Below, piece after piece: positions 35,151 through 62,574 of a stretch of 64,000 bases of DNA; positions within the stretch are counted from its first letter, which is position 1; each line of letters begins with the position of its first letter. The translations under genes were made by a program, and so were the position numbers. The DNA is from Magnolia sinica (lineage: Eukaryota; Streptophyta; Magnoliopsida; Magnoliales; Magnoliaceae), in NCBI RefSeq assembly GCF_029962835.1, contig NC_080581.1, positions 19,544,001 to 19,608,000 on the forward strand, given 5' to 3'. Under the pieces are notes generated by a model. It had not been told where the DNA came from, searched no databases, and worked only from the letters and a program-made list of their open reading frames with translations.

Positions 35151-35199
35151 TATTCCTAACACCCATCGATACACTTAAGATTATGAATAGATAACATTA

Positions 35200-37694: not shown

Positions 37695-37719
37695 CACTAC
37701 AAGAAAAACGGATAAAGGC

Positions 37720-38045
37720 TACGGCCAAAAACCATAGTAAAGGTTCTTTTGCTACGGATATGATCCGTAGCACATCTGTCACTATTGGTGGGGTAGATAA
37801 AGGTATAGCTACGGATTATATCTGTAACAATAGATACCAATAGCTACAGATTATATTCGTAGCAATCCCTTTAGCTACTCCACCATTAGCAACGGACGTA
37901 CTACGGATCATATCCGTAGCAAAAGGGATTTTATCCGTAGCAATAGATACCAATAGCACCAATAATATCTGTAGCAATAGATACCAATAGCTATGGACAA
38001 AAGCCGTAGTTATAGCTACGGATTATATTTGTAACTATTTTTTTA
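37720..38045. repeat. CACTA A subterminal repeats
   Basis: Repeated imperfect palindromes of the form GCTACGGAT-ATGATCCGTAGC and TAGCAATAGATACCAATAGC. Such subterminal arrays bind the TnpA-like protein in En/Spm elements (family knowledge). Confidence 0.88.
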
Positions 38046-38346
38046 ATTGTAATAATATGACCTGTTTCCATTACAAGAACCTGCTGTGATTGATAACTCA
38101 TCTAAGCTTAATGCTGATAGAAATAGTACATAAAATGCAATCAGAAAAAAAAATGATGCATTTATTACAAATAGCAATCAAATCATACGATGCATCCTAC
38201 ATTTACATTTCTAAATAAATAATACTTCACTTTGCTCAACTTATCATAACAATTACAACTAAGGCGTGCCCTCATGTGTAAGAAACAAATACACTCCAAC
38301 ACAGTAAACACCCTCCATATGCATTCAATAATGCTCACGTTTTTAC

Positions 38347-38523
38347 AGAATTTTCTTCCTTCAGACGGTCAATTTCAGCAAATGCAGAAGATAGAGCTTC
38401 TTCTTTCCTTGAAACTGCGGATGTAACTTCTGTGGACTTTGACACAAGATCACTTTCAAGTTCTGAAACCCTTCCCTTGAGAAAATGAATTTCATCTTCC
38501 ACTGACTTCTTTAACTTGTCAGC
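38347..38523 (-). pseudogene. Captured coiled-coil exon, NUA/TPR-like (nuclear pore anchor)
   Basis: A 177-bp (59-codon) open block bounded by a good acceptor (TTTATACAG before ADKLKK) and a donor (GTAAAA after EENS). The peptide ADKLKKSVEDEIHFLKGR...ELESDLVSKSTEV...EIDRLKEEN is an amphipathic coiled coil with regular heptads. From memory it resembles the plant nuclear pore anchor NUA (TPR/Mlp family), which has ELESxLxSKxEE and ALSSALAEI..LKEEN-like segments. Other long coiled-coil proteins remain possible. No neighbouring exon of the same gene was recognised. Confidence 0.45.
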
Positions 38524-38725
38524 CTGTATAAAATAGCATTTGTAAACACAATCAGATAAGCATGCCTTTTTACACATCTCAAAAGGAAGAAAGACAAAAA
38601 AAATATATATATATACTATATATGAAAAAATTAAAAAAATGTACCTACAAATCTTTTAAACTATAGCAAAATCCAACATGAGTAATGTGTTCAAACCTAA
38701 GATGGACTTTTAAACTCAAAACCCA

Positions 38726-40316
38726 GGTTTAGGTTAAGGTTATAAGTTTAAGTTTAGGTTTAGGTTTTAGGTTTAAGTTAAGTTATAGTTTTAGGCTAGG
38801 TTTAGGTTATAGGTTATAGGTTATAGCTTTAGGGAATTGAGAATAGGTTAAGGTTTAGGTTTAGGAAATCGGGTTCGGGTTTGGGTTCGGGTTTAGGTTT
38901 CGGTTTTCAAGTTTAGTTCTAGGTTTAGGTTAGGGAGTTGAGATTAGGATTAGGTGTAGGTTTAGGTTTAGGTTAGGGAGTTGAGATTAGGATTAGGTGT
39001 AGGTTTAGGTTTAGGGATTTGAGAATACATTTAGGTTTTAGGTTTAGGTTTAGGTTTTAGGTTATAGGTTTAAGTTATAGGTTTAGGTTTAGGTTTTAGG
39101 TTTAGGTTAATAGGTTATAGGTTATAGGTTTTGGTTTAGGTTAAGGTTATAGGTTTAGGTTTAGGTTTAGATTATAGGTTATAGTTATAGGTTAAAGCTT
39201 AAACCTTTAGGGAATTGAGAATAGGTTAATTAAGGTTTAGGTTTAGGAAATCGGGTTCGGGTTTGAGATCGGGTTTAGTTTATGTTTTCAAGTTTAGGTT
39301 TAGGTTAAAGAGTTGAGATTAGGATTAGGTGTAGGTTTAGGTTTAAGGATTTAAGAATACATTTAGGTTTTAGGTTTAGGTTTAGGTTTTAGGTTTAGGT
39401 TAAGGTTATAGGTTTAGGTTAGGTTTAGGTGTAGGTTATAGCTTTAGGGAATTGAGAATAGGTTAAGGTTTAGGTTTAGAAAATTAGGTTCAAGTTCGGG
39501 ATCGGGTTTAAGTTTGGGTTTTCAAGTTTAGGTTTAGGTTTAGGTTAGGGAGTTGAGATTAGGATTAGGTGTAGGTTTAGATTTAAGGATTTGAGAATAC
39601 ATTTAGGTTTTAAGTTTAGGTTTAGGTTTTAGGTTATAGGTTTAAGTTTAGGTTTTAGGTTTAGGTTAAGGTTAGGTTATCGGTTATAAGTTTAGGTTAT
39701 AGGTTATATGTTATGGGTTAAGGTTTAGTTTGTAAGTTTTGGTTTAGGTTAAGGTTATAGGTTTAGGTTTAGGTTTAGGTTATAGGTTTAGGTTAAGGTT
39801 AATGTTTAGGTTTAGGTTATATGTTATAGATTATAGGTTATAGCTTTAAGGAATTGAGAATAGGTTAAGGTTTAGGTTTAGAAAATTGGGTTCGGGTTCG
39901 GGATCAGGTTTAGGTTTGGGTTTTCAAGTTTAGGTTTAGGTTTAGGTTAGGGAGTTGAGATTGGGATTATGTGTAGGTTTAGGTTTAGGTTAAGGTTAGG
40001 TTATAGGTTACAAGTTTAGGTTATAGGTTAAGGTTTGGGTTATAGGTTTTGGTTTAGGTTTTAGGTTTAGGTTATAGGTTATAGCTTTAGGGAATTGAGA
40101 ATAGGTTACAGGTTTAGGAAATCGGGTTCGGGTTCGGGATCGGGTTTAGGATCGGGTTTAGGTTATCGATTTAGGTTTAAGTTATATGTTATAGGTTTAG
40201 GTTACAGGTTTAGGTTAGGTTATAGGTTATAGGTTTAGGTTTAGGGTATATGTTATAAGTTATAGGTTAAAGTTTAAGTTATAAGTTAAGGTTTAGGTTT
40301 AGGTTATAGGTTTAAG
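38726..40316 (+). repeat. Degenerate telomere-like array (TTTAGG-type), about 1.6 kb
   Basis: Nearly continuous GGTTTA/GGTTATA units, with scattered exact TTTAGGG heptamers (the plant telomere unit) and GGGTTCGGG variants. There is higher-order structure: the blocks 'GGAATTGAGAATAGGTTAAGG' and 'GGAGTTGAGATTAGGATTAGG' recur in a similar order every few hundred bases (for example 38830, 39215, 39445, 39850, 40090 for the first). It lies inside CACTA A. Confidence 0.9.
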
Positions 40317-40329
40317 GTGTGGTCCTTGC

Positions 40330-40834
40330 AAATACAGATATAAATACGGTCTGTCCAAATGGTCAGGCCCCTTTAATGCTGTCCATAAGAAATGGACAAC
40401 CTCATCATGGTCATAAGAGCGGTTCCCACCTTTCAGGAACCCCTGCTCAACATCCGGATAGCTCCGATGCACATCCAGATCTGCTTCATCAATTTCGAGA
40501 TAATACATAAACACGGGCCTGTCCAAATGGCCAGGCCACCCATATTGTTGTCCATAAGAAATGGACAGCTTCATGGTGGTCATAACAGCGATTTTCACCT
40601 TCTAGGGAACCCCACTCAATATCCGGATAATTCCGACGCACATCCAGATCTACTTCATCAATTTCGAAATAATATATAAACATGGGTCTGTCCAAATGGC
40701 CAGGTCACCCATATTGCTGTCCATAGGAAATGGACAGCTTCATCATGGTCATAACAGCGGTTCCCACCTTTCAAGGACCCCCACTCAACATCTAGATAGC
40801 TCCGACACACATCCGGATCTACTTCATCAATGAA
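40330..40834 (+). repeat. 169-bp tandem repeat, about 2.9 copies
   Basis: Units start at the CTGTCCAAATGG landmark at 40351, 40519 and 40688. Each has CATAAGAAATGGACA, CATCATGGTCATAA and CATCCAGATCTRCTTCATCAAT. The third copy breaks off at about 40834. The open frames on both strands here come from the repeat and are not genes. Confidence 0.92.
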
Positions 40835-41152
40835 TCATATAGTATGAAGGAAAGAATACTCACTAATTTAGCTAGCAAGGAGAGAAAGTGTGAGTGCTTG
40901 GAATGTCGCCCTTTCTTTGAATAATGGATGCATATTCCACAATGCAATCTGAGAATGAGTAAGTTTTTTAGTTTCTCCGACAATGTATATGGGCACAGAT
41001 TTACAAATAAAGATTTTAAGCTAAACCAAAATAGAGATGACAGTGCTTGGCACTTCCTCCCAATCTTGGTCCTCAAGATAAGTGGTGCTCACATGGACTG
41101 CATCAGAATTTAAGCTAAACCAAAAGAGAGAATACAAGAAAGAGATTACTAC

Positions 41153-41228
41153 CTGGCCAGACATAACTTCACCATTGATCCAACTAATGTTAATTCCAGC
41201 ATAAAGGCATGCTTTGTAGTATTGGCCC
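41153..41228 (-). pseudogene. Captured glutamine synthetase exon
   Basis: A 76-bp block with an acceptor (TTTGTGTAG) and donor (GTAGTA) encodes [23 protein letters not shown]. It matches the conserved glutamine synthetase segment [23 protein letters not shown] that lies near the active site, with changes at G-to-W and P-to-S. The exon end after GQ matches what I recall of plant GS genes. Glutamine synthetase joins ammonia to glutamate; this isolated piece cannot. It is a captured fragment in CACTA A. Confidence 0.85.
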
Positions 41229-42491
41229 CTACACAAACCGACACACATAGCCTCAGCTCTTGTAACATGAGAGATATCTAGATAGCAAAGATACACATTG
41301 GATAAGATCCTTTTTTTAAACTATGGTTTGTGAAGTCAGTGAAATTTGGGACCATTTATGCAGATCTTGTTTCTCATAAAACAAGAGACATGCTGCTATT
41401 AAAGAACGAAAAATGAACCACATCTACTTGAAATGTGTTCTCCTATCCCAAATAAAATCCAATTAACAGAATAAGATGTAACTATGTAGCCAAACCAGAG
41501 ATCAAATGTATAAACATGTCAATCAGAGCAATACTTCAAACAGTTTCTTTTAGTTAAAATGAGGAAGAATGGTAAAGTAAAACAGAAGGTAAGATCTTAA
41601 GACTAAAAAATTTTCTATTTTCCCCTTTGAAGGTTAAGGCAAAATCTGTTACAACTCAAATTCAACAGACCTAGAAACCCAATCCTCGACGCCATTAAAC
41701 CTAGAAAGAACTCTGATACAAATGAGTAGGGTAGCTAGACATGCATACAACTATTCAGCCTCAGCATTCAAACATGAGCTTCACATGTGATTTACATAAC
41801 CTGCGTTAGGACATCTCAGCTGTATATAAAGTTGGACTTATTATATAGATAATTAGGTCCAAAGCAATAGGCGGAGCAACCCCTGATAACACCACACCTG
41901 ATTAAAATGAGTAGATGGTTTAAAACAGCAATTATTACCATAAATGCATCAAGAACCTGAATGTTAACAGTCCAATCTAGGGTCCAGGTCATCTACATGG
42001 TAGATCCAAATTGATGCACAACTTTGATGTTTTTTTAAAAAAAAATAAAAACCTTTTTCACTCTCCATTTAGCAGGATGCAAACAACATCAAAACCAATA
42101 CACACGGGAGGATTCGAGCCGGGACACAACTCAAATATCCTATAACTACATTTAAGAGTGCATGTAGAGAGAGCAATGGTTGGTCTAGCAAACAATTATT
42201 ATGTACACACACACACACACATAGTTTACCAAATGCTGAGTGTCAGATGGTATCATTCTACAACACCAACCAAATGCAGACTTATGGAAATATAATCCAA
42301 AAATGGGCCTCCAAAAAAAACTTTTTCAAAAATAATAACAAGAACATACCAGAAAATGATTATCTGGTCAGGCTTCTTTTTCCCTGAACTCATATAGAAA
42401 TATAGTAGAAGTTCCCTAGAATCTTTCTTGAAAGTCATAATCTACTATTGCTGGGAGGTCAAGTTGAATTAAGATCAACGAAAGAAGTTAC

Positions 42492-42602
42492 CTTTGCCAA
42501 TCTGGCAATAATTCGTCTTTTACGCTCTTTGTTAGCATCCATGGGGCTCTTGAAATTACCAACCAAGTTCTTTTCATCATTTTCTATTAGCAAAGAGGAC
42601 TC
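42492..42602 (-). pseudogene. Captured exon of an unidentified gene
   Basis: A 111-bp, 37-codon open block with a good acceptor (GTGTGTAG before GAGTCC) and donor (GCAAAG then GTAACT). The peptide runs ESSLLIENDEKNLVGNF, then KSPMDANKERKRRIIARLAK. It is charged and basic at the end. I do not recognise the parent. The exon-like borders and position among other captured exons support capture. Confidence 0.55.
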
Positions 42603-43395
42603 CTACACACATGGGTCCAAACCAAATTGCAACTCAAACCAACAAAACTCAGATATGGAAAAATTTGGGAAGCAAATTGTCAGTTTGAAAAGTTAGGAAA
42701 AAGCACACCTATGGCTCATGGATGAGAGTTTCTGAATCACCCATGTCATTCAAATGTCGCACAATGCCTTTCTTCTAGAAGTTCAGCATACAAGGCTTGG
42801 ATCATGCCCGAAAGGTTTTTGAAAATTTGACAAATTTCCTATAGGTTCTTCTTCATAAGCACCATGAGAGACTTTTAATTCATTAAAAAAAAAAAAAAAA
42901 AAAGACAAGATTCTGAAACATTCAAAATTGAAATCTGCACGGCATGCTAGAGTGGGACAAATGGTGTGGCATTTGTTGAGCCTCCAGGTGTCACTCCATT
43001 TCCATTCTGAGACCCACAGAACTTGATTATGTTGACTTCATTTGCATTAGTACATACAGGATTCCCTTGAAGCCTGATCATCATGTTAAACAAATCACTT
43101 AAATCGCCATGGCAACCAAGTACAATATTTCATAATTGAAATACAATTCATTGGAAATAAATCACTTAAATCACCATGTAAAACAAATCATTCGCCTTGT
43201 GTTATTGGAAACTATCATAGAAATAAGAGGGGCTGTAAAAATTCGGATCGAACTTTTCAGATGGCTGTAAAAATTCAATATGTTATGGATTTTTTATCTG
43301 CACTTACCAAGAAAACAGTGAACGCTTAAACAATCATTTGGGAAAAAAATGGAAAAGTGATTACCCGCTTGCAGAACTTCCTGAAACAACATAAA

Positions 43396-43503
43396 TTACT
43401 TCTTCAGGCTGTTGCTTGAAAGGACTTTCTTCCCATAAGGGCTGCTCCGGAGTGCTAGAACATGGGGCCTGATGGCCTCCACAAAAGCTACATTAATAGC
43501 ACC
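43396..43503 (-). pseudogene. Captured last exon of a Pumilio-like RNA-binding protein
   Basis: A 108-bp block after an acceptor-like GAGTAG encodes AINVAFVEAIRPHVLALRSS, then PYGKKVLSSNSLKK and a natural TAA stop. The pattern IRPH-xx-LR-xx-xYGKxVL is the C-terminal flank of Pumilio (PUF) repeats (animal version: IRPHIATLRKYTYGKHIL). PUF proteins bind mRNA 3' UTRs. Only this last exon is present, so it is a fragment. Which plant PUM subfamily is uncertain. Confidence 0.6.
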
Positions 43504-44029
43504 CTACTCTGCAGTAGAACAGTGACAAGGTTACAATCAAGAAAAAAAGAAAGGAAAGAAGAAGAAGAAGATTTTCTTCAGTAGAGATTTTCTTCCACTA
43601 TGAGATCCCTTGTCCAACAATCAATTTGGTCCTACAACTAGATATGTGGCTCGCAAGTAAGTTGTTATCTATCAACAAGGACAACATGCTAAAATAACTT
43701 CAAAACTGCCCAAGGATCCTATTTTTAAGCTTAATTTACTCAAATAAACTAAATAATGATAATATACCATGTTACTCAATTTTTTTTAATACATATGAGC
43801 TTTGACTAGAGTTTAAATGATTCTTCTATAACAAATGGCAGAATTAATGCTGAAATTACAATTATGTTAGCGTCATTTATTATGGTAAGGATTCCAATCC
43901 ACTAGAGATAATTAGTCTTTAGATGAATAGAAGATCGACAGCCCTTGCGTAACTTGCATCAATATCAAAGAAATGAACATGTATATACACTAACGAGAAG
44001 TACATGTTAAAGATGTTGGTGGATTTTGA

Positions 44030-44725
44030 GTGGAGTTAGAAAAGGTCACCTCAGTCAAACTAGGCTCTATGAAGTTCCTCACCCAAAACCCATGAACACT
44101 TCTCCCTTCCTTAAGCCTAGCGGACCAACCACATGTTGTAATCGCACTCACCATTGTCGTAGGGCTCGATCTCATTCCCGCCCTTCCCATCTCCTGAAAC
44201 AACTTCAGCCCACAACCCGGATTCCCCCCTCTCAAATACCCTGCAAGCATGACATTCTAAGAAACCACATTTCTCTCTGGCATTACATCAAACAAACTGC
44301 GAGCACTAACCAAGTCGCTCATCTTTGCATACCCATCAACAATCGAGTCCCAAGAAACTAAATCCCTCAAAGGCATTACATCAAACACCTGCTGAGCGCA
44401 TCCCATGAGCCCACAGCTCGCATACATATGCACCAAAGCATTCCTCACATGGACAACTGCATCGACCCCATTCTTCACCCCCTACCCGTGGCACTTCTCG
44501 CCATCATCCGCACACCCCTTCTTCGCGCACGAGCTCACCAATGGTGGGAACGTGTAGCTATTCGGTAAGAACCCTCTCCGTAGTATCTCGAAATAGAACT
44601 CCACAGCATTGCCAGGATCGGACGACTGTGAATATGCCTTGATAACGGTGTTCATGCAGAAAGAGTCGGGAGAATTGATCTGGCGAAATATCAAGAAGAG
44701 CTTTCCCAAAGCTCTGATTAGGGAA
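44030..44725 (-). pseudogene. Captured PPR (PLS-class) gene fragment
   Basis: Minus-strand pieces spell pentatricopeptide repeats: MNTVIKAYSQSSDPGNAVEFY, NSYTFPPLVSSCAKKG, VRNALVHMYASCGLMGCAQQVFD, MPLRDLVSWDSIVDGYAK, ARSLFDVMPERNVVS, MLAGYLRGGNPGCGLKLFQEM and TTCGWSARLKEGRSVHGF. The mix of P-, L- and S-length repeats is that of PLS-class proteins, which act in organelle RNA processing. In-frame stops (after EKCHG and after ERNVVS) and loss of the start region and the C-terminal E/DYW part make it a pseudogene. It begins right after the shared CACTA terminal segment, so it is the first captured sequence. Confidence 0.9.
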
Positions 44726-44774
44726 CGGAGAGAGAGAGAGAGAGAGAGAGTGAGTGAAATACGGGCATTTGGGC

Positions 44775-45260
44775 GCGGCTCTGTTTTGAGCGCGCGCCCA
44801 AAATTGGGGTTTTTTTTACGGACGGACGAAGGAGGTGCGATCAGGGGATCCGTGGGGCCCACCATGATGTATTTCGTTAATCCATTCCAATCCATAATTT
44901 TAATAAATTATTTTACTTAGGAACACCAACTTTCAGGTATATTGAAGGCCCAAGTGGACCACACCATAAGAAGCAACAGTAATTTAATATCAATGTTTCC
45001 TACCGTGTGGTCCACTTGAGCCTTAGATCTAGCTAATTTTTTTTTTTCATCCTCTAAAGTAATATTTACAAATATATAGACGGCTTAGATAGAACATATA
45101 GTTTTTTTAGGCCTCATAGAGCCCCTTACAACACTATTAATTATTAATGGTGTATCAACTTTTTAGCTACGGATTAAAACCGTAGCAACTATAGCTAAGG
45201 TTTATATCCGTAGCAAAAAAGTAACGTGGTCTGAATCCTTTGCCCCTTTTTTTGGTAGTG
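44775..45260 (-). repeat. Terminal segment shared with CACTA B
   Basis: The reverse complement aligns with 54353-54840 from CACTACCAAAAAAAGG through GCTACGGTTTTAATC, AAAAAGTTGA, GTAGGAAACAT, TATGGTGTGGTCCACTTG, TACATCATGGTGGGCCCCAC to GCGCGCTCAAAACAGAG. Homology then stops in both, and host-derived sequence starts. It includes a member of the GGGCCCACC foldback family and a (CT)n tract at its inner edge. Confidence 0.93.
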
Positions 45261-45263
45261 TAA

Positions 45264-46500
45264 GCGAATATTATGAGACCAGAAAACAACAGACAAATGA
45301 ATTTTGTTTTATCAAATTTCTCTCTAATCTTTGTCTTAGGTTTGAACCTATGCGATCTTAGATTCTTAGAGTTGGTGAAATTCCATTCGATATAGAGGCA
45401 TTTGCTTGGGTTCATCATGAAAGTTGTATAAATACATGAAGTCCATCTACATCTAATAACTTGGCTTTTATTCTTCACTAATAAGGAAGGTGAAGTCATA
45501 GGTGGTTGCGGTCATAGTAGACAGTCTGGTGGTAGAGATTCAAGAGGAGGTGGTTTTAGATGTACGAATATTTAGAAAGATCGTGATATAGATTTTGATG
45601 GTAGATGTTGTTGTAGCCGTGGTCATTGACAATGCTCTCACTATAGTCTTTCTAACTGCACTATTAATGAGTTGGGATTTCACTAGTCTATCTTGCAAAT
45701 CAAGTTCAAATTTTTTATCACAGGTTTAAGAACTATGGCTGTAAGCCCATATTAGCCCATTCTAAATCAAGAACCGCATGGCATAGTTATGTTGTCCAAT
45801 GATAAATATATGTCAAATTGTTAAAAGATCATTTTACCCATGGATCCTTCTCTACTACTGCTCTTGTTCAATTATGTATGATATGTATTGTTTTCTCTAA
45901 AAGTATTCTTTAAGGTATTGATTTTTAAGCTTTAGACATATTATTAGTGAGCATAGTGTTTCGTCTCAGGTAGATAAGCCTACTCCTATTTCTTCTATAA
46001 CATTAACTAACAGCACTATAATATATGTACCTTTGTTGTGTACTAATTATCATACTTCACTAAATCTTGAATGCACATGCGCCAGTAACGAAGATTTTAA
46101 AAATGTTTTGAATTAATGTAATTTTAACTACATGTCATTTAATCAATTAGATGATTTTATCTATTTTAATTTTTAAATGATAAAATCATTTTCTATTTTA
46201 TGTGGTATTCCCACATTTACCTCAAACAATCAGACTCCTTTGATTAAAAAAGAATGCCCAACTGATTTAGACCATTTCATATTCACGGCGGTCCGTTTAT
46301 GACAATCAGATATGTCACACGTATGACGCATGGGACCAGGACCCTTTGCATGGATCATTCGTTTAAGGTACTGTACAATGCTCGGGTGAATATTTTGTAC
46401 GGTGCAGTTACCTCCTGTGTAAGGATCCAAAAGTAGAATCGATGGCCGTACCCTATATGGCCCCAGATCGGAAGATCCTCTCCATTAAATGCTTGAACCT
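45264..46500. other. Intergenic stretch right of CACTA A
   Basis: No gene recognised. 45480-45660 has a Gly/Arg-coding flavour (GGTGGTAGAGATTCAAGAGGAGG) that recalls a decayed copia gag, but no further domain supports this. Confidence 0.45.
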
Positions 46501-46926: not shown

Positions 46927-48479
46927 ACTGTACAAGAGTTTGTTTCGTTAAGCCGCGACTGAAACAAACCATCATTTGTTTCCTACTGGGGCCAACGTGC
47001 AGGGATGAATCGATATCCGAACGGTTCATATTCTCTGCCATGGTTAAAACATACGCTTAACAGATGATTCTGTTCATTAATACTTATAGCGGACTGTAGA
47101 CCACTGAAAAGAAAGCATTCAGTAGCTCACATTGAACTCTACAGATCAAGGGTCAGGAACAATCTTTTTGCGTCATTATTAGATCATAGACCAATCAAAA
47201 TATATATATCCCAGAGGATAGACCGTCCGATTATTCGGCCATCTCTGCATATGGGATTGAACGAGGGCGACATATGCTGGTTTTACTGACTCCCGACTGC
47301 TCAAAGGCACTCAGGTGCAAGCTATGCTTCGAGACATGCAGGCAGTTCAACCATCGATCTTGATCATCCATTAAGTTCCTTCTTCCTTCAATGGGCCACG
47401 ATGAAAAAGTGACACCCATCAGACGATCGCTTCCATCCAATCAAAGTCCTGTTAGATGGACGGTGTAGATGATATACAAGAAAAGGTCCAACCATTAATA
47501 TGAACAATCTATTCGGTAGGGTGCCTTATTATGTTGATGACACAACCACAACCATCCGATCCACGACTTGAAAACCGACGGCAATCAATAATTTTTTTTA
47601 AAAAGGCTAACCTATGTAATGCGACAATCCTTTCATGACTGCTATTATTACAGGTGATCCATAAAAGAGTGGGTTCAAGCAAATGGACGGTTCAGATCTA
47701 CGATTGGCCTGTCTATTTGACTAGAAGCATCCGAGTGTACTTGTAGCTGAAGTGCAACCAGATGCACATGATCACTCGATATTAGGGTGCAGTAAATGTA
47801 GAGATAAGTACAGTGAAGAAGGTTGGTCTTCTTTGTATTCAATCCCTCTTCTGGCACGTTGATCAAGACGGTCCACCATTAATATAGAAAACTTTGATAC
47901 TCTGCAGAGAAAGATGATCGATATACATGCACAGATAAAAATAGTAAACGTGACATAAATTTACCTCAATCTAAACGGTCCACACATGTGCCCAGCTATA
48001 GATGGACAACTACCCCAAAAATGCACCGAACATATAATCCTAACCCGATGATTGATGGACAAATCTAATGGACGGTTAAAATGGAAAAGAAGTTCAATAA
48101 TTAGCAATAAGATCCGAAATTGGACAGATGCCATCTAGGCTCATCCGAACTACTTGGACGGTTGAATTGGAGATACACATATGCCAGTTGTGCAATTTCT
48201 ATGTGCGTGCACACTAACAACCATACTCTACCAGAATACCAAACGATACCTCCATTCCTCTATCGCTGAGGAAAACCACACGCGTTACCAAATCTACCCA
48301 ACAACTCGCCACCACAGCACCAGCACATAGATACAATTCAATCCATGACAGAAATCATGTGAAAAAATTCAAGCAATAAAAGCATATACACCATTCTTCA
48401 GTGTATATACATATACACATACACAAACACATACGTTGCATGCATGCATGTAACCATATCCCGTAAACCAAACCCAAAT
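46927..48479 (+). promoter_or_regulatory. Upstream region of the proline-rich protein gene
   Basis: Unique-looking sequence with no repeats or frames of note. A TATA-like TATATACATATAC lies at 48404-48416, which would give a leader of roughly 40-60 bases before the chosen start. A run of GCATGCATGCATG (48437-48449), a purine-pyrimidine RY-like motif, lies just before it and creates an upstream ATG in frame with the gene. The promoter call is a guess from position. Confidence 0.3.
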
Positions 48480-50225
48480 ATGAAAGCTATTTTCATACTT
48501 GTTTTGCTGGCTCTCGTCTCCACAGAGGCCACAAGGCACCATCATCGATCACAGCCACACGATCAAGATCAAGAGCTAAGGCGAACCAATCGTGGCCGTC
48601 CATCTTGCGATCCATTCTTCCGGTACCTCTTTGGAAGCTGCGGCCAATGGCCGTTCGCCCGATCCCCTACTAACCCTTTTGCACCGGCGCCGTCGCCCCG
48701 TCGACGCACTCCTCCGGTCCCACCACCCATATTTCCTCTCCCACCTCCGGCGCCGCTTCCGACGCCACCAATTCCCACATTCCCACCACCCATAGTTCCA
48801 TCCCCACCACTCATTCCACCCGTTGTCCCGTCCCCAGCGCCACCAACGGTCCCGATTCCACCACGTGGACCTGTCGTCGTCCCGTCCCCACCAATCATTC
48901 CACCCGTCGTCCCGTCCCCCCCACCACTAGTTCCATCTCCACCACCACCATCCTCACCGCCCCCGCTACTTCCGTCACCACCACCACCACTCATCCCATC
49001 ACCTCCACCACCATCGCCACCGCCACCTCTTGTTCCATCTCCCCCTCCGCCATCATTGCCATTGCCTCCACCACCATTTATATTTCTCCCACCGCCGCCT
49101 CTCGTACCTTCACCACCACCCCCACTAGTCATTACACCACCAGTACTTCCTACATTACCACCACCCACTGTAATTCCGACATCTCCCATCGTACCGATGT
49201 TTTCTCCACCACCATCCGATCCGTTCGATGTTCTCCCACCACCATCCGACCCGTTTGATTTCCTCCCACCACCATCTGATCCAACAATCCCACCCGTTAA
49301 TCCACAACCACTGCCACTTCCCCCACCAATCGTGCCATTACTGCCTCCACCGGCGGACAACATCGATGGGCCAACCCTGCCTCTGCCACCTCCATCGAAT
49401 GATGATACTGATGCGCCCGTTCTACCTCTGCCGCCACCATCCAGCGACGATACAGGTAGCCCGGTGCTGCCGCTGCCATTGCCACCTCCATCAGACGATG
49501 ATACGGTTGGCCCCGCACTGCCATTGCCACCTCCATCAGGTGATGGTATTGTGGGGCCGACGCTGCCGATGCCTCCTCCATCAGATGATGGTACTGGTGG
49601 GCCGACGCTGCCACTGCCACCTCCATCAGATGATGGTATTGTGGGGCCGACGCTGCCACTGCCACCACCATCAGATGATGATACCGGTGGCCCTACACTG
49701 CCATTGCTACCTCCATCAGATGACAGTGGCCCTGCACTGCCATTGCCACCTCCATCAGATGACAGTGGCCCTGCACTGCCATTGCCACCTCCATCAGATG
49801 ATGGTATTGTCAGGCCGACGCTGCCACTGCCACCTCCATCAGACAATGATAGGGATGGCCCTGCACTACCATTGACACCTCCATCAGATGATGGTATTGT
49901 AGGGCCGACACTGCCACTGCCACCACCATCAGATGATGATACTGGTGGCCCTACACTGCCATTGCCGCCTCCATCAGACGATGATACGGGTGGCGTTGCA
50001 CTGCCATTGCCACCTCCACCAGATGATGTTATTGTTAGGCCCACACTACCTCTACCATCCCCAAGTAATGATGGTATTGTCGGGCCGACGCTGCCTCTTC
50101 CGCCTCCATCAGATAATGATATCAACCCACCGTCGCTGCCTCTGCTACCGCCAGCAGACGATGATATCAATCAGCCAACGCCTGTTATGCCTTCCCTTCC
50201 CTTCTCTCCTCCTTTCAAGAACTGA
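48480..50225 (+). CDS. Secreted proline-rich cell-wall-type protein (581 aa, intronless)
   Basis: The frame opens at 48444, but I choose the second ATG (48480) because MKAIFILVLLALVSTEA is then a normal signal peptide; the upstream ATG adds 12 polar residues in front of it. After cleavage comes a short His/Arg-rich part, then a two-cysteine module RPSCDPFFRYLFGSCGQWPF (residues about 41-60), then Pro-rich sequence to the end. The first part (about 70-270) has Pro runs and PSPPP phrases; the second has some 20 repeats of LPLPPPSDD[D/G]xxGPT type. Ser-Pro runs of the extensin SPPPP kind are few, and Tyr is scarce, so it is closer to a proline-rich protein than a cross-linking extensin. Expected location is the cell wall. 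Gene symbol unknown. It is the only whole-looking host gene here. Confidence 0.85.
   Translation: MKAIFILVLLALVSTEATRHHHRSQPHDQDQELRRTNRGRPSCDPFFRYLFGSCGQWPFARSPTNPFAPAPSPRRRTPPVPPPIFPLPPPAPLPTPPIPTFPPPIVPSPPLIPPVVPSPAPPTVPIPPRGPVVVPSPPIIPPVVPSPPPLVPSPPPPSSPPPLLPSPPPPLIPSPPPPSPPPPLVPSPPPPSLPLPPPPFIFLPPPPLVPSPPPPLVITPPVLPTLPPPTVIPTSPIVPMFSPPPSDPFDVLPPPSDPFDFLPPPSDPTIPPVNPQPLPLPPPIVPLLPPPADNIDGPTLPLPPPSNDDTDAPVLPLPPPSSDDTGSPVLPLPLPPPSDDDTVGPALPLPPPSGDGIVGPTLPMPPPSDDGTGGPTLPLPPPSDDGIVGPTLPLPPPSDDDTGGPTLPLLPPSDDSGPALPLPPPSDDSGPALPLPPPSDDGIVRPTLPLPPPSDNDRDGPALPLTPPSDDGIVGPTLPLPPPSDDDTGGPTLPLPPPSDDDTGGVALPLPPPPDDVIVRPTLPLPSPSNDGIVGPTLPLPPPSDNDINPPSLPLLPPADDDINQPTPVMPSLPFSPPFKN
49330..50175 (+). repeat. 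Coding minisatellite in the proline-rich gene
   Basis: Units of 39-54 bp built on CTGCCATTGCCACCTCCATCAGATGATG with a variable GG-T-ATTGTGGGGCCGACG part. Two neighbouring units (49719-49760 and 49761-49796) are almost identical, indicating recent expansion. Confidence 0.88.
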
Positions 50226-50424: not shown

Positions 50425-50430
50425 AATAAA
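50425..50430 (+). terminator. Polyadenylation signal candidate
   Basis: AATAAA 200 bases after the stop codon of the proline-rich gene, in an AT-rich context. Confidence 0.5.
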
Positions 50431-50902: not shown

Positions 50903-50910
50903 ATTACAAT

Positions 50911-51504: not shown

Positions 51505-51512
51505 ATTACAAT

Positions 51513-52700: not shown

Positions 52701-52987
52701 TTTTGGTTTTTGTGAAATTGTGTTGGAAGCTATGAAGTCTAATCATGGGAGAAAACTTAACAAGTAATGTGCAAGGAAAGTTGTCCATGTAGGTTTTTAT
52801 TATTGGGAGGAGAACTAGGTGTCGATGCTAGATTGCGCTCACAAGTGTTTTTTCGAGCTTTTGTGTGTGTTTGTAACTTGGGATACTGTATGTTTGATTT
52901 ACAGTCATCGCTAGCTAATTACTCATATTTTCATCATCGAGTAAACCTTATAGAAAACTTAAGAGAATGAATTGGAAGCGATTTCCT

Positions 52988-54100
52988 ATCACGCCCCAGT
53001 TTGCATAATCCAAGTCTATTACTCATTTTCTGAAATCCCTGAGTATTAATCTTTAAAGATCGTCTAAATTTCAAACATATTTCTTTTTATCATTTTTCAA
53101 GAGTAAACATTTCAACAAAAGAGAAATAAATAAAACATAAAGGAAAATTTGCACACACATTTAAAATATACGAGCGGTTGCCCACATGGCTTGTACAAAC
53201 CAATGTTTCATTACTAACAATTACGAGAATGAAACAATTTAATACATGAAAGAGAATAAAATGCAGCTAGACTTGAGCTGCAAGATTGCGCAACTTCTTT
53301 TGAGTGTAAATACAGCCATACATCCCTAATATCTATGTTATGCTCCTTATTAATATGAACATCAAGTATCTTTCAAATCATCTGTATCATCTATATAGTT
53401 GTGTATTCAAGCATGAGTAGCTAGCTCGTTGGAAATTTTCCTTAATATTTCACACCACCGCATTAGTTGAGTATAGTTTAAACAATAAAACATACAAAAC
53501 AATCTACGATACAATATTATTAAAATGCATGAATACATGAATGCGCATTAGTCTGAAGATGCTCACATCCAAGTGGCTTTTGGGAAAAACTTATGAATAG
53601 TGCGAAACCCACATACAAGTCGCTAGTCACCAACGAAAATACACAAAGTACGTGCTAAAAGTGATTAGCTTATACAAATTAGGTCGACTGTTAGTAGTAT
53701 GGGGGCTAGCGAAGCATACCGTGACAGATGATACGTGTTACATCATTCAAAATTAGAAACCCGTTATCACCTATATGTCATGCATATATGATTAACCCAA
53801 TCGTTATTATTGAAATTGTGAACAACCATTTTAAGAAAGCTCAAAGGTCACTCACTATGAGGGACTCGTCACCTAGCATAAGCCGACAGATCGGACGTAT
53901 TGTTCATACCACCATCCCCGACTCACGAGACTTCAATACTAGGATGTTTAATGGTAACCTCATCACCTAGTGACCAATTATACTTCAACAAAGTGAAACT
54001 TAACATCGCGAGGTTATACGAAAATAATTCATCAAAGCCATGTAGGGTAAATATTTTATCAAAGCTATATAGGGTAAATATTCCATCAAAGTCATACATG
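52988..54100 (+). mobile_element. Del/Tekay-like LTR relic
   Basis: Starts TATCACGCCCCAGTTT, one base off the TGTCACGCCCC start seen at 13773. Its part at 53850-53960 (GGGACTCGTCACC-TAGCATAAGC-CGACAGATCGGAC, then CCGACTCACGAG) parallels 23550-23625 in the LTR at 22642. A short threefold repeat TTATCAAAGCYATRTAGGGTAAATA lies at 54010-54120. Right end uncertain; no coding part. Confidence 0.55.
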
Positions 54101-54352
54101 GCAAATAGTTCATCAAAGGATGCCATAAAAAAATGAATTATCCCAAAAAGCCACATAAGTACAAATGATACACAAGATGGTAAGTCTACAACAAAATTCC
54201 ATTTAATTCATTAGACAAAAATGGCCACTAGTTCGATGGTCTATTGTAATCACAATCAATCAATTTTACATCCCAAATATGAATGTGTGTGTGTGTGTGT
54301 TTGTGTGGAGTTTTCTACTAATTGATATGGTAATTCAAGCTTTGTAAACAAT

Positions 54353-54840
54353 CACTACCAAAAAAAGGTAAAGGATACAGATCACGTTAGTTTTTGGCTA
54401 TGGATATAAATCGTACTATATATACTACGGTTTTAATCTGTAGCTAAAAAGTTGACACACCATTAACAATTACCGGTGTTGTAAGAGGCTTTATAGGGCT
54501 TTTAAAAAAAATATATGTGTCCTACCTAAGCCTTACATCTATTTCAAAATATTACTTTAGAGCATGAAATAAAAAATCAGCTAGATCGAAGGCTCAATTA
54601 AACCACACGGTAGGAAACATGGAGATTAAATCACATTGTCTTCTTATGGTGTGGTCCACTTGAGCCTTCAATCTACCGTAAGTTTGGGTTAATAAATTAA
54701 AATAATTTAATAAAATTAATTGTTGGAATGAGTAAAAAAATACATCATGGTGGGCCCCACGGAGCCCATATTAGGACCGTCAATAGTCCGTCTTAAGAAC
54801 TAACGCCCAAATTTGGTCGCGCGCTCAAAACAGAGTCATT
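54353..54840 (+). repeat. Terminal segment shared with CACTA A
   Basis: Inverse counterpart of 44775-45260; homology ends after GCGCGCTCAAAACAGAG. Confidence 0.93.
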
Positions 54841-55201
54841 TCCCAATCCTCTCTCCCTCCCGATCTCTGCTCCATCACTCTCATTCTCCTCCCTCTCTCT
54901 CCAATGCATCTCTGCCGTCTCTTCTATCTCTCTCTATTGCAGCAGTCGTGAAGCTCCTACCCGAAGAAACTTCTTGTTTTAAACACGAATGTGGACAGTA
55001 ATCGAGATCTGATCTTGTGATGTTCAGTTAGGGTTCACTGATTTTGATAATTATTCTTGATACTGTTAATAGATTTTGGATTTTGTAGATCTGTTCATTT
55101 GTATCAGATTCTCTTTTATCTTTGCAATTTCTTGAGTCTATGTTAATCTTTTCTTTTGTAAATTGGGTTTTACAAGTTAGTGATTTGGGGAATCTGATCA
55201 G

Positions 55202-55298
55202 ATTCTATGCTCAATGGCACTCGTGTTTGCTCCCCTACTATTCGTTTGATCAGTTCATACACAAGGTGGAACAAGTAGGTGCCGCCAAATGTGTACAG
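55202..55298 (+). pseudogene. Captured exon of an unidentified gene (weakly TIPIN/Swi3-like)
   Basis: Acceptor GATCAG and donor ACAG-GTAAGC bound a 97-bp block coding FYAQWHSCLLPYYSFDQF, then IHKVEQVGAAKCVQ. A possible next exon starts at 55402 (after CTGTTAG) with DIVKEASTGKDAM. The FDxFIxKVExxG pattern loosely recalls the Swi3/TIPIN replication-fork protein domain; I hold this only as a hint. Confidence 0.45.
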
Positions 55299-56711
55299 GT
55301 AAGCCGCTTCGAATGTTAGGTCTTGCACATCTTTGCTCCGCACACATGTGCTGTAAGCTGTGTTAGTTAGGATTTTACTCAGATCAACTTTCCTCTGTTA
55401 GGACATTGTAAAGGAAGCTAGTACAGGGAAAGATGCAATGGACAGGCCATGTATCTTGGTCCAGAGGCTTAGGTTCTGTATTGAGCTGAAAAGGACAAAA
55501 TCTTGGCTTATCTCTCTTCACTGAAATTGGGCTAGTCCACTCTTCGGCTCCTGTTTATTTGACTGGCCATATTTTTCAAATGATCAGTCACAGTTATACA
55601 GGCACGATTGAATTCCTGTGTTTTTCTGATATCAAGATTTATAGATCCTTAACCTAGGCATTATGACCATGAAAGCCTGTTAGCTGATGATTTTGATAGA
55701 GGTCAGCTATTACAAATGATGTTATTTTGATAGAGTTACTCATTTGAAATGTTTCTGCTCATTTGAAAGATCATATGCATGGCAGTAGTTTGTTTTTTTG
55801 CCAATGAAAATATTCTTGTATTGATGTTCTAGTATATGCATATGGTGAAGCAGGACCAATTTCTGCTCATTTGAAATTTCTTGCAAGAGATGGCATGCAA
55901 CTATGTTAAGTTTCAGCTTCTTTGATATTTCCTGCAAGAGAAAGCTAACAACTATTGAGTGTGAAATGTTCTAGTAAGCCAGGGGTTCTGGGTGGTCAGA
56001 TTTTCTACGAGCAGGGCCTTAATCTTCTAAGCTTTTGGTTCGTTTGTTGTTTAGTTAGTTTGCTAGCAGGGCCAGTTTTTGTCGTTCCTGGTGAAGTATG
56101 CAAGTTGTCTCCATCCTTGTTGGAGCCTTTCATGTGGTCTATTTGCTTATTTGCCCAAGCTTCTTCAAGTTTTGTCTCTCTCAAATTTCTGTCGTTCAAG
56201 TTGGATTGGAGCATCAGTTTTAAGGTGTTCTTTTCTCAGAATATAGGATGGTAATTTTGGATTGGTAAAAATATTAACCAAGATTGCAATGGTCCATATT
56301 TCAGATTGCATGACCCGGAATGGAAAATGTATTGGGGTTGGCAAATTTTGGTAAACATCATTGACAACAAAATGATGCCTTGCCTATTAATGCAATGCCT
56401 AAATTGAAAAAACTTAATAATTTTTGTGGCAAATAACGTCTTGGTCCTATTGTTATTCTAAATGTTATTTCAGCAACTCTTAAAGGATCTTCCGATCTGG
56501 TTAAGTGAGTTCTGGTTTTATGGGATTCTGTTGAGTTGTTAAATGAGGTTGGGGATTAGCTACAACCTTTTGGAGGCCTATTGCTGTTCTAAATGTTATT
56601 TCAACAACTCTTAAAGGCAGTTCTTTGGTTTTGATGGAGACCTGTTTATGCCGTTTGGAGGCTATCTGAAGAGGAACATTTAATTTGACAAACATTAAGC
56701 TATATTTTGTA

Positions 56712-56810
56712 GGATGTGCAAGCATGTAGGAGAATTTGAATCGAATTTTCTGTCTGACCTTGAGGGAGGCCAATTGCCAATAAAAGACTCCCATGATGGT
56801 TTGGAAGGTA
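56712..56810 (+). pseudogene. Exon-like block, parent unknown
   Basis: After a TTTTGTAG acceptor, an open block codes CKHVGEFESNFLSDLEGGQ, then LPIKDSHDGLEG, followed by GTAAAG. The acidic peptide shows no family I recognise. Confidence 0.3.
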
Positions 56811-58678
56811 AAGTTGGAGGACAACAATTTGAAAACTCTTCTTGGGACATTCAGTCATTTTTTGAGGTTGACCATATCGGTATTGTTAGCTTGCAAGATA
56901 CTTCATATATTAGTTATAGTTTGAAACACAACTAATCTGTGTTAAGTTTCAGGTGAATTATGGATGAATTTGGATGGTGACCTTTCTCCCATATGTCTGA
57001 ATATCTTGCCATTACTTTCCTCTTCCTCACAATTGTAATGTTTTCATGTCTTTATTGCTTAACTACATTATATCATTTGTCTGAAATTTATATTCTCATG
57101 GCAAGCAGTTCCTGACATAGCATGTGTTGGTACAGGTCTTCATCCTCCTTTTTTATTCTTCCTGCTAACTTTCTATTACTCTCTACTGTGAGTCCTTGAT
57201 CTCATTGAACTCTTTTACAGTACTTACAATCAGAATTATGATCGGCAGATCATGGTTGGCAGCTATTCTTTTTCATGTCTATGAAAGGTTTGTTATGACT
57301 TATAAACTATGTTCGAAGATTTCAGGCTGAATTGAGAAAACCACTCTTTTATATTAGATAAATGGCATTGATTCAATCATCCACTCAGCCAACACTTTAT
57401 CCAATCCTTTTTCTCTTCTCATTATAGTGCCAGGTTCCCTACTTTGGTGGGCTAGGAATGTGATGTTAGGTTCAGTCTTGGGAGCGGCATTTTTTTTCCC
57501 TCTTGGTAATATTCTTATTCTCATTTATTTATTGAATGAGTCAAAAGCTTACCGTTCGTTGCTTCCAAATATAAATTGGCACTGCTATGTTAATTTACAC
57601 AAATACGACTTTTGTATTTTTCATGGAAGATATTGTGTGCACATTGTATACTAGGAGACTGCACGTCTCTTGCCATCTGATAGCAGATAGGAGGAATCTT
57701 AACATGCATTTCCAAATAGGTGTTTAAAATTTCACATTTTGTGAACCGCGTGAGATTCCCATGAATTGTCTTTTATCAGTCGAAGTTGCGCTCTTTATAT
57801 GAAAACCAAAAAAAAAAAACAGAGAATATGGAGAAAGCTAATCCTCTCATTTTTATTTTTATTTTTTTCTCTTTAGAAAATGATTTTTTGCTGAAACAGG
57901 TATGTGATCGAGTGATTGTGATGTGGTTTTCGTCATCTTTGAATGATAAGTTGTGCAATTATCAACAGCTATCAGCTGAGTTTTGTTTTTGCTCTTTCAT
58001 TGGGAGAGTTTGGAGAGCGAGAAGAGGACCCCATCATCATCTAGCATGGGGCTTTTTGGATTGACATAAGGTGGCAACCATCAGAAACCATCTTCCTAGC
58101 AGATTGGTGGTTCATTCTACATCAGATTGAATGCTTCTTCTTGAAAGGTATGTAGAGCGTTCTCTTGCATAAAATTTCAATTTTTGGTTTCTCTATATTT
58201 TCAGTGATGATTTTGAACTCTTTTCTACTATGTAATCTATTAATATGCTTTTTGAATTCCTTGATTTAGTATTTTACTATGTGTATTATGATAAAACCTT
58301 AGTTCTCTAGTTAAAGTCATGTCTTGTCTCCATATTCTTCCTTTAATTTAGAGGACATTTTGGTCAAAACAAGGGCAATGAGGAGACAAGCATTGTGCCA
58401 TACTCCAATGCCCAAGTTTCTTAACTTCTACCTTGGGTTTGATTTGGGCTTAAATGCTTTCTCTGTTGACAGATCCTGTAACATTATCATATCAGACTCA
58501 TCATTGGGCTCTTTAAAAAAAAAAAAATCATGGGTGGGCTGACAATAACAAGTTATTTGATTTCTCCTTTACAATGTTGAATCATGCCTTTGTTTCTAGC
58601 AGATTCCCCAGTTCTCTACTTGGCATTTGTGACATGTGCAATATTCAAAGTACTGCATTATATGGCCTTCCATTGCAG

Positions 58679-58810
58679 GTTCTAGTTCATGGTTGGACAA
58701 AGGCGACGGAGCATTTGAAACAATACTGCTCAAAAAATGTTTGCCCTCATGTATATGCTTCCCAGATCGAAGAGACAATCGACGTCAAATCGAATCTGTG
58801 TGCCTATAAG
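58679..58810 (+). pseudogene. Captured exon of an unidentified gene (44 codons)
   Basis: Strong acceptor CCATTGCAG and donor CTATAAG-GTATCA bound a 132-bp in-frame block: VLVHGWTKATEHLKQYC, SKNVCPHVYASQIEETID and VKSNLCAYK. It keeps an open frame and both splice signals, so it was captured recently or is conserved. I do not recognise the parent. Confidence 0.55.
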
Positions 58811-59184
58811 GTATCAATAGGAATGTCCTTAAGTTTTTTATGGACAAGCAATGGTTGAATATGCATTCTTTTTTTTTTCTTTTTTTTGTCATGAAGGTCC
58901 TTTTCCTTGAACTCAAGAAAGAATTGAACTTATTTTTATTCTTGGAAACTGGATGTAGCGTTCTTTTACTGCGATATAGATGGGATTTCCCTTTAATTGC
59001 ACTGTGACATGACTGTACATGTTGGAGGTAAAAGAACCCATGGAAGATATCTACTGTTGAGGCAGAGGTTTGAGGTTAGTTTCTATTCTAGAGAGCATTG
59101 GGTTGGATCGTTGCCTGTAGGAGACCTCACAAAACTAATACCTGTTTGGTTTCAATATAGTTTCCAGGGGTCCAAGCCATTCCT

Positions 59185-59391
59185 TTAGAAGAGCAAGCCT
59201 TGCAACCTATAAAACCAGTTGAATTTAGTAGGCAATAGACGCAGCTGCCTAAATTGACAACGAATGAGAAATTGCAAAACCACAGGTCCTCTCCTGTTCC
59301 AGTGCTAGACGCTAACATAGAAGATCCGAGCAAGATCGCCTCTACAATGATTGATCTCAACTGATTCATGGGCAGCCTTCAAATACACAGG
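59185..59391 (+). pseudogene. Exon-like block with stops, parent unknown
   Basis: Reads [19 protein letters not shown], then after a stop PVLDANIEDPSKIASTMIDLN, another stop, and SLQIHR before a GTGTGC donor-like site. Codon use looks gene-derived, but the frame is broken. Confidence 0.35.
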
Positions 59392-61210
59392 TGTGCATGT
59401 TATTGGCTTTCAATATGATATGTATATTTTGGTTTTGTTTTTTAGAGGTTGCGAAGCTAAAGTTAACCAATCTGCAAGTTACGCGAAGTTTAGTGTAATT
59501 TTGTGTCCATAAGGTGCAGGGGACGAATGCTTTAAGCGATAACAATCATGAGTGTGCAAGTGTAATTCCAATGGGATCTTGCTATCAAGATCTAAAGAAG
59601 TAAGGTAGATTCTATTCTTCTCATTTATGCTAGTTCACTGGTCTTTTTGTTTAACCATTTCTTGATTAAAGGAAGAAAAAGAAAAAGATAAGGAGCCTTA
59701 CTTCTTCGGCCTTCTGAGTTTTGGATGTCCTAAAAAAGAAAAAGATCAGAGTTGTTTAGACTAATCATTGGTTAACATCTATAAACCAACGCCATGGTGC
59801 ATGGGGTGTTTTTTTTTTTTTTTTTTAAAGCAGGAGTGCATGGGACTGAAATGTACAATGCATCTCTTGAATTTTTGTGGAAATGCATGGGAATTGTTAT
59901 ACATGCTTTGTTGAGTTCTTTTGAAATGCTTCATTTTGTATGGTAAAACTTTCTTTAAAATGATGCTAAGTTAAGAAAAAAAGAAAGATAAAGGATTGCG
60001 AGTTATGATTTCCTGAGATATTTAAAGTTTCATGAGTTGCATAAAAGTTCACACTTCGTTAAAAGCTAGGGAGAGACTTAGTTGCTAGCTTGTATGCTAT
60101 ATTCAAATCTTGGATTCGTAGAACTGCCTTGCTCTTGTACTTCTTTTCTTCTTAAACAAGGTAATCTATACTAGTGGAACTTTTTCCGTTCTCAATATGT
60201 CGTTGTCGTCTTTTCATCATCATCTTTACATTAGCCTTCCAACACTTCGGTGTTGGCTTTTGAATGGTAGATTGGCAAATCTTTTATGACACCGAACACC
60301 TATCTTCCATTTTTACCTGGGGTCTTGAACAGACTATATGGTGGTACCTTCTCATAATTCAAATGATCTTTGGAATCAGAGAACTTGGTTAAACGTAAAA
60401 AGAAAGAGAACCAGCTATTGCAAAACAAAATAATAGTGGATATGCCAAGATTAAATATGAAAAATGATCCAAACACATAACAAATGCGTTGAACTTTTCA
60501 AGACAAACATACTCAACAAATCGATGCGTCCTTCTATTTGTACATGCAACAACATGAAATGAGTTTTCAACGAATCTTCAACCGGATAAGGCAAAATCTC
60601 TTCATGTAGCACCAGTCCTCTAAATATATAAAAACTGACTCTCTTGCAAATCTAGGAAGTTCATGGCCTTTGATTTATGTGCAAGAAAATGCTGGACGAG
60701 AGCTAAACTTGTCATTGTTAGAATAAGTTATTCATAAAAATATCAATGGATTATTACGGAGGCATATGGCTCAGGATATAACCTAGATGTGGCACTGATA
60801 TGTACACACATGGGGAAAGCTAATCTACCCAATTTCACTAGCAGTCTATCATTTTTTTATTGCAGTGATACTGCACTTTAATCTGCTTCTATTCTACCAT
60901 TTTGAATTACCTAATATGGCTTAATAAAAAACCAATTTTCATCCTAATTACCTAATGGGCAAAGTGCAAGTTGTAAGTTGCTATATTCTCTCTATACTGT
61001 CATAAATGTTGTTTTAAACTAGAAATTTGAGTCAAGCTGATTGATCTTTTAGTTGTTTAAGATGTTTGAAACTTTGTTGTTTAATGTAAGTTGCATTTAT
61101 TATTAGTGAATAGAGCTTAATAAAGCAACTTTAACTTAAATATGTTGTATAATGCATTAAAGTGTGTTAGAAGAAATGTAGGATGGTTCTCGTTTTGAAA
61201 TCATATCCAG

Positions 61211-61652
61211 TGTTATGTAGCTTGGTATGCTCACATTCCTGGGTTGAAAGTTCTGACTCCATACTCATCAAAAGACGCTCAGGGCCTTTTAAAAGCAGCT
61301 ATTAGAGATCTTGATCTTGTAGTTTTTCTTGAAAATGAGTTGCTGTAAGTAGCTTTTCGAACGTGGAACTATTTTTGTCATGTGAAACTTGAAGTATTTA
61401 TTTGATTAGCATTGATTTTGGGATGCTCCAAATATGGAGAGTCTTTTCCTGTTTCAGCGGAAGTTCTTGATTCCAGTTTCTGCCTTCCAATAGGAAAAGC
61501 TAAGGTATGATTTTTTGGAGTGCATCACACGTTATCTGCAAATTTAATATTTTTCTTCAAGTTCCTCATCTCATGCCCTCCATTAACATATAGAACAAGG
61601 AAAAGATGTGACCATTACAACTTTTTCAAAGATGGTGGGTTATGCCCTCTAG
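61211..61652 (+). pseudogene. Captured pyruvate dehydrogenase E1-beta fragment (three exons)
   Basis: Three consecutive exons with introns retained. Exon a (61211-61344): [45 protein letters not shown], then GTAAGT donor. Exon b (61432-61504): YGESFPVSAEVLDSSFCLP, IGKAK, then GTATGA. Exon c (61590-61652): IEQGKDVTITTFSKMVGYAL, then GTGCGT. These match the transketolase C-domain region of mitochondrial PDH E1-beta ([47 protein letters not shown]). Damage: the acceptor AG before exon b is AA, exon c ends in TAG where the family has a Lys codon, and RDPD is RDLD. The rest of the gene is absent, so no enzyme can be made. Confidence 0.92.
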
Positions 61653-62274
61653 GTGCGTGTGCTCTTTCTTTTAAGCTGTGGTGCCAATGACCAGTATGTG
61701 ATCAATAGGTTTATTCACAAGTTGCTTGTGTATGTTGCACTCTTTTTGGAATTTGGTTGGTGCTTATCCTCGTTGAACTATAATAAGCTTTAGGCAGGGC
61801 AAAACTAGGTTATTTAGTGAGGGTTGCAAGCCTAGCCTGACCCAAGCTTGGCATGGGCGTAGCATAAGCTGGCCAAAGCATTTTCTCTTCAAATCTAGGA
61901 GTTAGATGATGAAGTCTTAATGGAGAATCAGAGTTAGAATGTGCTTGGTGTCACCATATCAGAGTAAGGCTGTAGTCGTTATTCTCAAAGTTGTGTTCCA
62001 GCGAACCTGTTAGCAATTCTGGATGGTTTTGGGTCTGATCCTATAGCTTGCTCTGTTTGATCATCGTCCTCTGCTCCTATTATACTTACAACCGGTGATC
62101 TGTTGTATTCTGAAATTTGTTTATTTAGAAATGTGAATGTAGGATGCATTGTATGATTTGATTGCTATTTGCAACATGAATGCATCGTTTTCAACATTAA
62201 TTGTATTGCTTAGATGAGTTGTTCAATCACAGCAGGTTCTTGCAATGGTACGGACAGCATTGTTATTTTAATTT

Positions 62275-62574
62275 CAAAGTAGCTACGGATATTAGTCGTA
62301 GTTGTTGTTCTAAAAATGTGCGTTGCTAACTTCAGTATTTGCTACGGATTTCATTCTACTTTTAGCTACAAATATTATTTGTAGCCGTTTGTAAATTTCA
62401 CTACAGAAAATTTAGCTACGGCCTATATCCGTAGCTATAATATCTATTTCTACGGATTTAATCCATAGCTATATCATTTAGCACACCAACAATCGCTACG
62501 GTAATGCTACGGACTATAATAGCAATAGGAATTTAGCTACGATTTTTATCCGTAGCTTTTTCCCCCTGGTAGTG
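62275..62574 (+). repeat. CACTA B subterminal repeats and right end
   Basis: About ten imperfect copies of TAGCTACGGAT...ATCCGTAGCTA, ending CCCCCTGGTAGTG. Confidence 0.9.

Follow-up and report, generated by a model that had tools for sequence, protein, structure and literature searches.

Transposons of the CACTA (En/Spm) superfamily that carry pieces of host genes have been described in several plants. The Tpn1 family of Ipomoea nil has non-autonomous members with captured host sequence, in which conserved ends and subterminal repeats enclose substituted interiors; its mean length is 7,081 bp, its target site duplications (TSDs) are 3 bp long with one exception, and one chimeric transcript has been reported (PMC5105172). 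Tgm-Express1 of soybean is a 5.7-kb CACTA element that holds pieces of five host genes, including both exons and introns, which are spliced as cassette exons (PMC1947982). In wheat 3B, 140 CACTA capture events were described, mostly of gene fragments and with some exon shuffling (PMC4290129). Chenopodium CACTA elements carry gene fragments together with tandem arrays near the 3' end, and the same report refers to a 171-bp satellite monomer and, for Magnolia ashei, to a CACTA transposase domain (PMC8978399). A proposed capture mechanism has been laid out in a 2026 review (PMC13317346). Among the matches listed in a literature search since 2018, which covered titles and the beginnings of abstracts, no paper title dealt with gene capture by CACTA elements in Magnolia. 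Here we describe two such elements, designated A and B, in a stretch of 64,000 nucleotides from Magnolia sinica (contig NC_080581.1, positions 19,544,001 to 19,608,000). This whole stretch is called the window below, and all coordinates are counted from its first nucleotide.

With a probability that we put at about 0.92, A and B are non-autonomous members of a single CACTA family of the Pack-CACTA or Tpn1 kind. An initial annotation of the window had proposed sibling CACTA elements with fixed ends and differing captured pieces of host genes, and this proposal is supported by exact ends and TSDs, by terminal modules common to both elements, and by cargo that is not shared. The elements and their terminal modules are as follows.

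37695..45260, minus strand: element A, a 7,566-bp CACTA element running from its 5' module at 45260 to its 3' module at 37695, with the TSD TAA
54353..62574, plus strand: element B, an 8,222-bp CACTA element with the TSD AAT
44763..45260, minus strand: 5' terminal module of A, 81% identical to the 5' module of B
54353..54850, plus strand: 5' terminal module of B, 81% identical to the 5' module of A
37695..38230, minus strand: 3' terminal module of A, with a conserved core at about 38068-38222 and subterminal CTACGG/CCGTAG repeats
62110..62574, plus strand: 3' terminal module of B, with a conserved core at about 62117-62248 and subterminal repeats

The two elements lie in opposite orientation with 9,092 bp between them. 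CACTA...TAGTG termini are present in both, and the 3-bp TSDs of both are exact. Between the two ends of A, 15 of the first 20 bp match in an ungapped comparison. Position 61108, which has an AAT flank too, was considered as the right end of B and dropped because the common 3' module and its repeats run on to 62574.

When A is taken in its minus-strand orientation, the 5' modules (about 490 bp) are 81.4% identical over 488 columns, with a Kimura two-parameter distance (K2P) of 0.221 over 492 columns. This bears out the earlier claim that A and B have an end of about 485 bp in common. The sharing had been placed at one end, and that end is real; the other end is likewise common to both, with 82% identity in the 3' core and 64% at the tip. 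The value for the core applies to one alignment of 148 columns, within which identity rises to 89% at 62117-62191 and 93% at 62208-62248 of B. Subterminal direct and inverted repeats, as for the CACTA superfamily, are present in both elements. The motif CTACGG/CCGTAG occurs 9 times in the 3' module of A and 8 times in that of B, and 3 times and 1 time in the respective 5' modules. Outside the modules there is one copy in the interior of A and none in the interior of B; the left flank (37,694 bp) has 6, and the 9,092-bp spacer between A and B and the right flank have none. Searched against the whole window, the module queries matched each other and palindromic parts of themselves, and the 5' module query had an additional weak match of 69% at 19968-20085. 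Imperfect palindromes are visible in the 5' module of B at 54582-54675 and 54391-54450, with counterparts in A. Part of the 5' module, with its weak relative at 19968-20085, may be a small nested inverted-repeat element.

Between these modules, A contains the following features, listed from its 5' to its 3' module.

44056..44694, minus strand: PPR gene fragment, At3g51320-like, identified by Pfam and homologue alignment, with two in-frame stops
43390..43512, minus strand: Pumilio C-terminal stretch (PDB 1ib2_A, E=6.8e-7, query residues 7-47)
42492..42602, minus strand: exon-like open reading frame (ORF) flanked by AG and GT, the containing ORF having no Pfam match
41153..41228, minus strand: glutamine synthetase exon (PDB 2d3a_A, E=3.6e-6, 25 residues matched) with AG and GT at its borders
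40340..40831, no strand: 169-bp tandem repeat, 2.9 copies
38725..40314, no strand: degenerate AGGTTT-type (telomere-like) array of 1.6 kb
38339..38523, minus strand: nuclear-pore anchor (NUA/TPR) exon, with AG before it and GTGAGC after it

The identified genes of A are thus, in order, PPR, Pumilio, glutamine synthetase and nuclear-pore anchor, and all four had been named in the initial annotation. It had also claimed an unknown exon in A, giving no coordinates, for which the exon-like ORF at 42492-42602 is one candidate. The PPR fragment is 71.8% identical to residues 91-303 of a 572-residue Persea protein (P0004). A total of 432 homologous proteins were found at E up to 1e-10, and among the matches listed many of the named ones are At3g51320-like; the homologue with the lowest E value (P0003) is a longer PPR protein of just 34% identity. 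The Pumilio stretch has two in-frame stops within the match, one close to each border. The glutamine synthetase ORF has no Pfam match, nor has the nuclear-pore anchor exon. The latter is 93.7% identical over 63 residues to positions 1000-1062 of a Magnolia sinica protein of 2,073 residues (P0001; alignment 38338-38526), a figure calculated without the intron-derived flank that was included in the 66-residue query. Of 82 candidates, 2 matched that query at E up to 0.01, one from Magnolia sinica (89%) and one from Asimina triloba (73%). A Trefoil match on the sense strand of A (E=0.57) was set aside as weak. In the degenerate array, TTTAGG occurs 83 times and exact TTTAGGG 6 times.

The features of B, in the same order, are these.

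55173..55307, plus strand: Swi3-domain exon (Pfam PF07962, E=1.2e-9) with a GT 5' splice site at 55299
56713..56807, plus strand: exon-like ORF flanked by AG and GT, with just a weak Pfam match below cut-off
58679..58810, plus strand: CPSF subunit 2 exon of about 44 residues, both splice sites present
61202..61345, plus strand: PDH E1-beta exon stretch (Pfam PF02779; PDB 6cer_B, E=5.1e-16) with GT at 61345
61433..61504, plus strand: likely following exon of PDH E1-beta, collinear with the preceding stretch, with GT after it and no AG directly before the first matching codon

PDH E1-beta had been predicted in B together with unspecified others, and the domain and structure matches agree; the others include the Swi3-domain and CPSF subunit 2 exons. 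The order of identified genes is Swi3, CPSF subunit 2 and PDH E1-beta, the first of which we take to be of the TIPIN type. In PDB searches at E up to 0.1, two sense frames out of three in B had no match, among them the frame that contains Swi3. The CPSF subunit 2 exon is 70.6% identical over 51 residues to a Tasmannia protein (P0174), in an alignment that extends beyond the splice site. Each of the 71 CPSF homologues found has the domains PF16661, PF10996 and PF13299; where names are given, CPSF subunit 2 is a frequent one. Two of these 71 homologues were compared with the exon of B by alignment, and both match. The two PDH stretches are consecutive in chain 3exe_B (126-176, then 176-210), the second having no Pfam match. 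A few weak Pfam matches below cut-off in ORFs of A and B were set aside.

A and B together hold fragments of seven or more host genes that are unrelated to one another, and none of the cargo is common to both elements. When the cargo blocks (54851-62109 of B, 40832-44762 and 38231-38700 of A, the array being left out) were compared with the whole window, matches were confined to the blocks themselves or to a 41-bp repeat inside B. Of each captured gene there is no more than an exon or two or a truncated stretch. The share of the protein present is 63 of 2,073 residues for the nuclear-pore anchor, about 44 of 739 for CPSF subunit 2, and 213 of 572 for PPR, the three of the seven genes covered by the truncation check. 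Whole-window tblastn searches with homologues of these three recovered the pieces within the elements and nothing else in the 64 kb but PPR-repeat matches at the same site and, for the coiled-coil query, a single 22% match (E=0.032). Splice sites are kept in most of the pieces, and therefore capture probably occurred at the DNA level. The stops in the PPR fragment and the missing AG at the PDH exon indicate that some pieces have decayed. Pfam (E up to 1) gave no transposase domain in the 12 whole-element frames of A and B, so that both are non-autonomous at the sensitivity of Pfam. The suggestion that the family repeatedly picks up genes is borne out here for two members only, those in the window.

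These features can be accommodated in a simple scheme. A transposase supplied in trans would recognise the ends and mobilise the element in one piece by a cut-and-paste mechanism. DNA of the host would be copied into the interior at the DNA level (transduplication), either through aberrant excision of neighbouring copies or through template-switching repair. The captured pieces would then be mostly decaying passengers, and they may be transcribed as spliced chimeras.

Several readings other than that of a gene-capturing CACTA family were considered. The ends alone are weak evidence, because equal 3-bp flanks also arise among other end pairs in the window. It contains 14 copies of CACTAC and 8 of GTAGTG, which form 27 pairs spaced 0.3-15 kb apart; 3 of these have identical 3-bp flanks, namely A, B and one other pair (23542-37044, GGT), at whose ends neither the 5' nor the 3' module has a match. 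For the shorter motif CACTA/TAGTG, identical 3-bp flanks were found in 17 of 748 pairs of the same spacing, 15 of them other than A and B. The idea that the ends of A and B are chance matches of this sort was rejected as having practically no prospect of being correct. It is contradicted by the common modules, which adjoin both ends of both elements and in which the subterminal repeats are clustered, and the status of A and B as elements is settled because both terminal modules are common to them. Also rejected was the reading that the exons belong to genes native to this locus which insertions have split up. It is very unlikely because seven unrelated partial genes sit inside exact 3-bp TSDs; for the three genes examined by tblastn (nuclear-pore anchor, CPSF subunit 2 and PPR) there are fragments only, with no other part in 64 kb. 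With a spacing of just 9,092 bp, A and B might be thought recent local copies, one hop apart. This is improbable, since they have no cargo in common and their 5' modules differ by 19% (K2P 0.221). They are also in opposite orientation, whereas most reported local pairs have the same orientation (12 of 15 for hAT and 12 of 13 for PIF; PMC8903248).

A somewhat better candidate, which we still regard as unlikely, is that the mosaic first arose through a Helitron or a Pack-MULE, or as filler DNA during break repair, and that CACTA ends merely enclosed or carried it. Helitrons and Pack-MULEs carry host gene fragments too (PMC4290129), and the 1.6-kb degenerate array and the 169-bp tandem repeat beside the gene pieces of A resemble stepwise accretion. 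In contrast, no Helitron or MULE ends were noticed in the elements, although no search aimed at them was made, and the PPR similarity starts just about 70 bp inward of the common 5' module of A. Certain observations weigh against our own preferred interpretation, that A and B are gene-carrying CACTA siblings. The family claim rests on two elements only. The inverted repeat of B is short, with only 10 of the first 20 bp matching between its ends (ungapped), and the repeat-rich 3' tips of A and B align at 64% only. The second PDH exon rests on collinearity; its score of 2.7 bits is not significant alone.

The two ends of each element differ, so the polarity of the cargo can be read. All 7 identified genes are in sense relative to the direction from 5' to 3' module, with a two-sided p of about 0.016 under a coin model in which the nuclear-pore anchor and CPSF pieces count although they were searched on the sense strand only. 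Among genes found by methods run on both strands, that is PPR, Swi3 and PDH (Pfam) and Pumilio and glutamine synthetase (PDB), 5 of 5 are in sense, giving a two-sided p of about 0.06 under the same simple model. The antisense control covered all 6 frames with Pfam, 4 of the 6 with PDB (E up to 0.01) and none with the large protein database; the sense counterpart of the PDB search in A consisted of chosen stretches, not whole frames. The antisense Pfam matches in A were DUF2490 (E=0.0032) and OMP_b-brl (E=0.038), both below curated cut-offs and both within the degenerate array. The sequence data are thus only suggestive of a bias toward sense cargo. A tentative and rather doubtful extension is that the element is a directional exon cassette, with a fixed promoter-like 5' module and a terminator-like 3' module, in which only sense pieces survive, because antisense pieces would pair with the parental mRNA into double-stranded RNA and the element would be silenced. 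According to PMC8903248, it is not easy to define the orientation of a non-autonomous element, and a narrow search of the open-access literature brought up no work on the polarity of captured genes in CACTA elements.

Elsewhere in the window, Copia-type gag/pol domains (Pol_BBD, gag_pre-integrs, SH3_retrovirus and Retrotran_gag_2) are present at 7325-8881 and 29276-31278, and an ORF at 27317-28060 matches Transposase_32 (putative plant transposon protein) below the curated cut-off. Tandem repeats of 84/170 bp occur at 24478-24877 and 32177-32440, about 7 kb apart; their consensus units look alike by inspection. Between the elements, 48363-50225 is a proline-rich open frame of 620 codons (stop to stop) with 45-bp repeats and, by eye, a signal-peptide-like start at 48480. 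Judged from its sequence, it may encode a secreted proline-rich protein; it has no Pfam match at E up to 0.01. Scans of the 64-kb window for tRNA genes and with Rfam were empty.

Comparison with the described systems places A and B closest to the Pack-CACTA and Tpn1 elements. Pack-CACTA elements of Arabidopsis and maize (PMC8903248, PMC13317346) likewise have CACTA ends and a TSD, are free of transposase, and hold coding pieces that sometimes come from multiple loci; they also combine novel interior DNA with more conserved ends (PMC8903248). Host coding sequence lies inside both A and B (seven genes), and two members of a family with conserved ends were seen in the window. Unlike the Pack-CACTA elements, A and B have ends asymmetric enough to give the element a direction. 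With Tpn1 they have in common the lack of autonomy, an interior of host sequence, conserved ends, 3-bp TSDs and subterminal repeats; the host lineage is a different one, and the resemblance is of form only. Tgm-Express1 also combines several host-gene pieces in one CACTA element (PMC1947982), but it is a single element within a known gene with demonstrated expression, whereas A and B are known from sequence alone. The wheat 3B elements are alike in CACTA-mediated capture; they belong to other families, and their host is a grass (PMC4290129). As in A, the arrays of the Chenopodium elements lie toward the 3' end (PMC8978399). Those elements carry transposase domains, of which Pfam showed none in A and B, and we claim no homology between their 171-bp monomer and the 169-bp repeat and AGGTTT-type array found here. 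Two siblings with a clear direction and differing cargo offer a way to ask whether such elements keep sense cargo only. The gene-carrying CACTA form is already well documented in several plants, and A and B are a good new example of it, not a new kind, adding a magnoliid case to the pattern described in Ipomoea, soybean, Arabidopsis, maize, wheat and Chenopodium.

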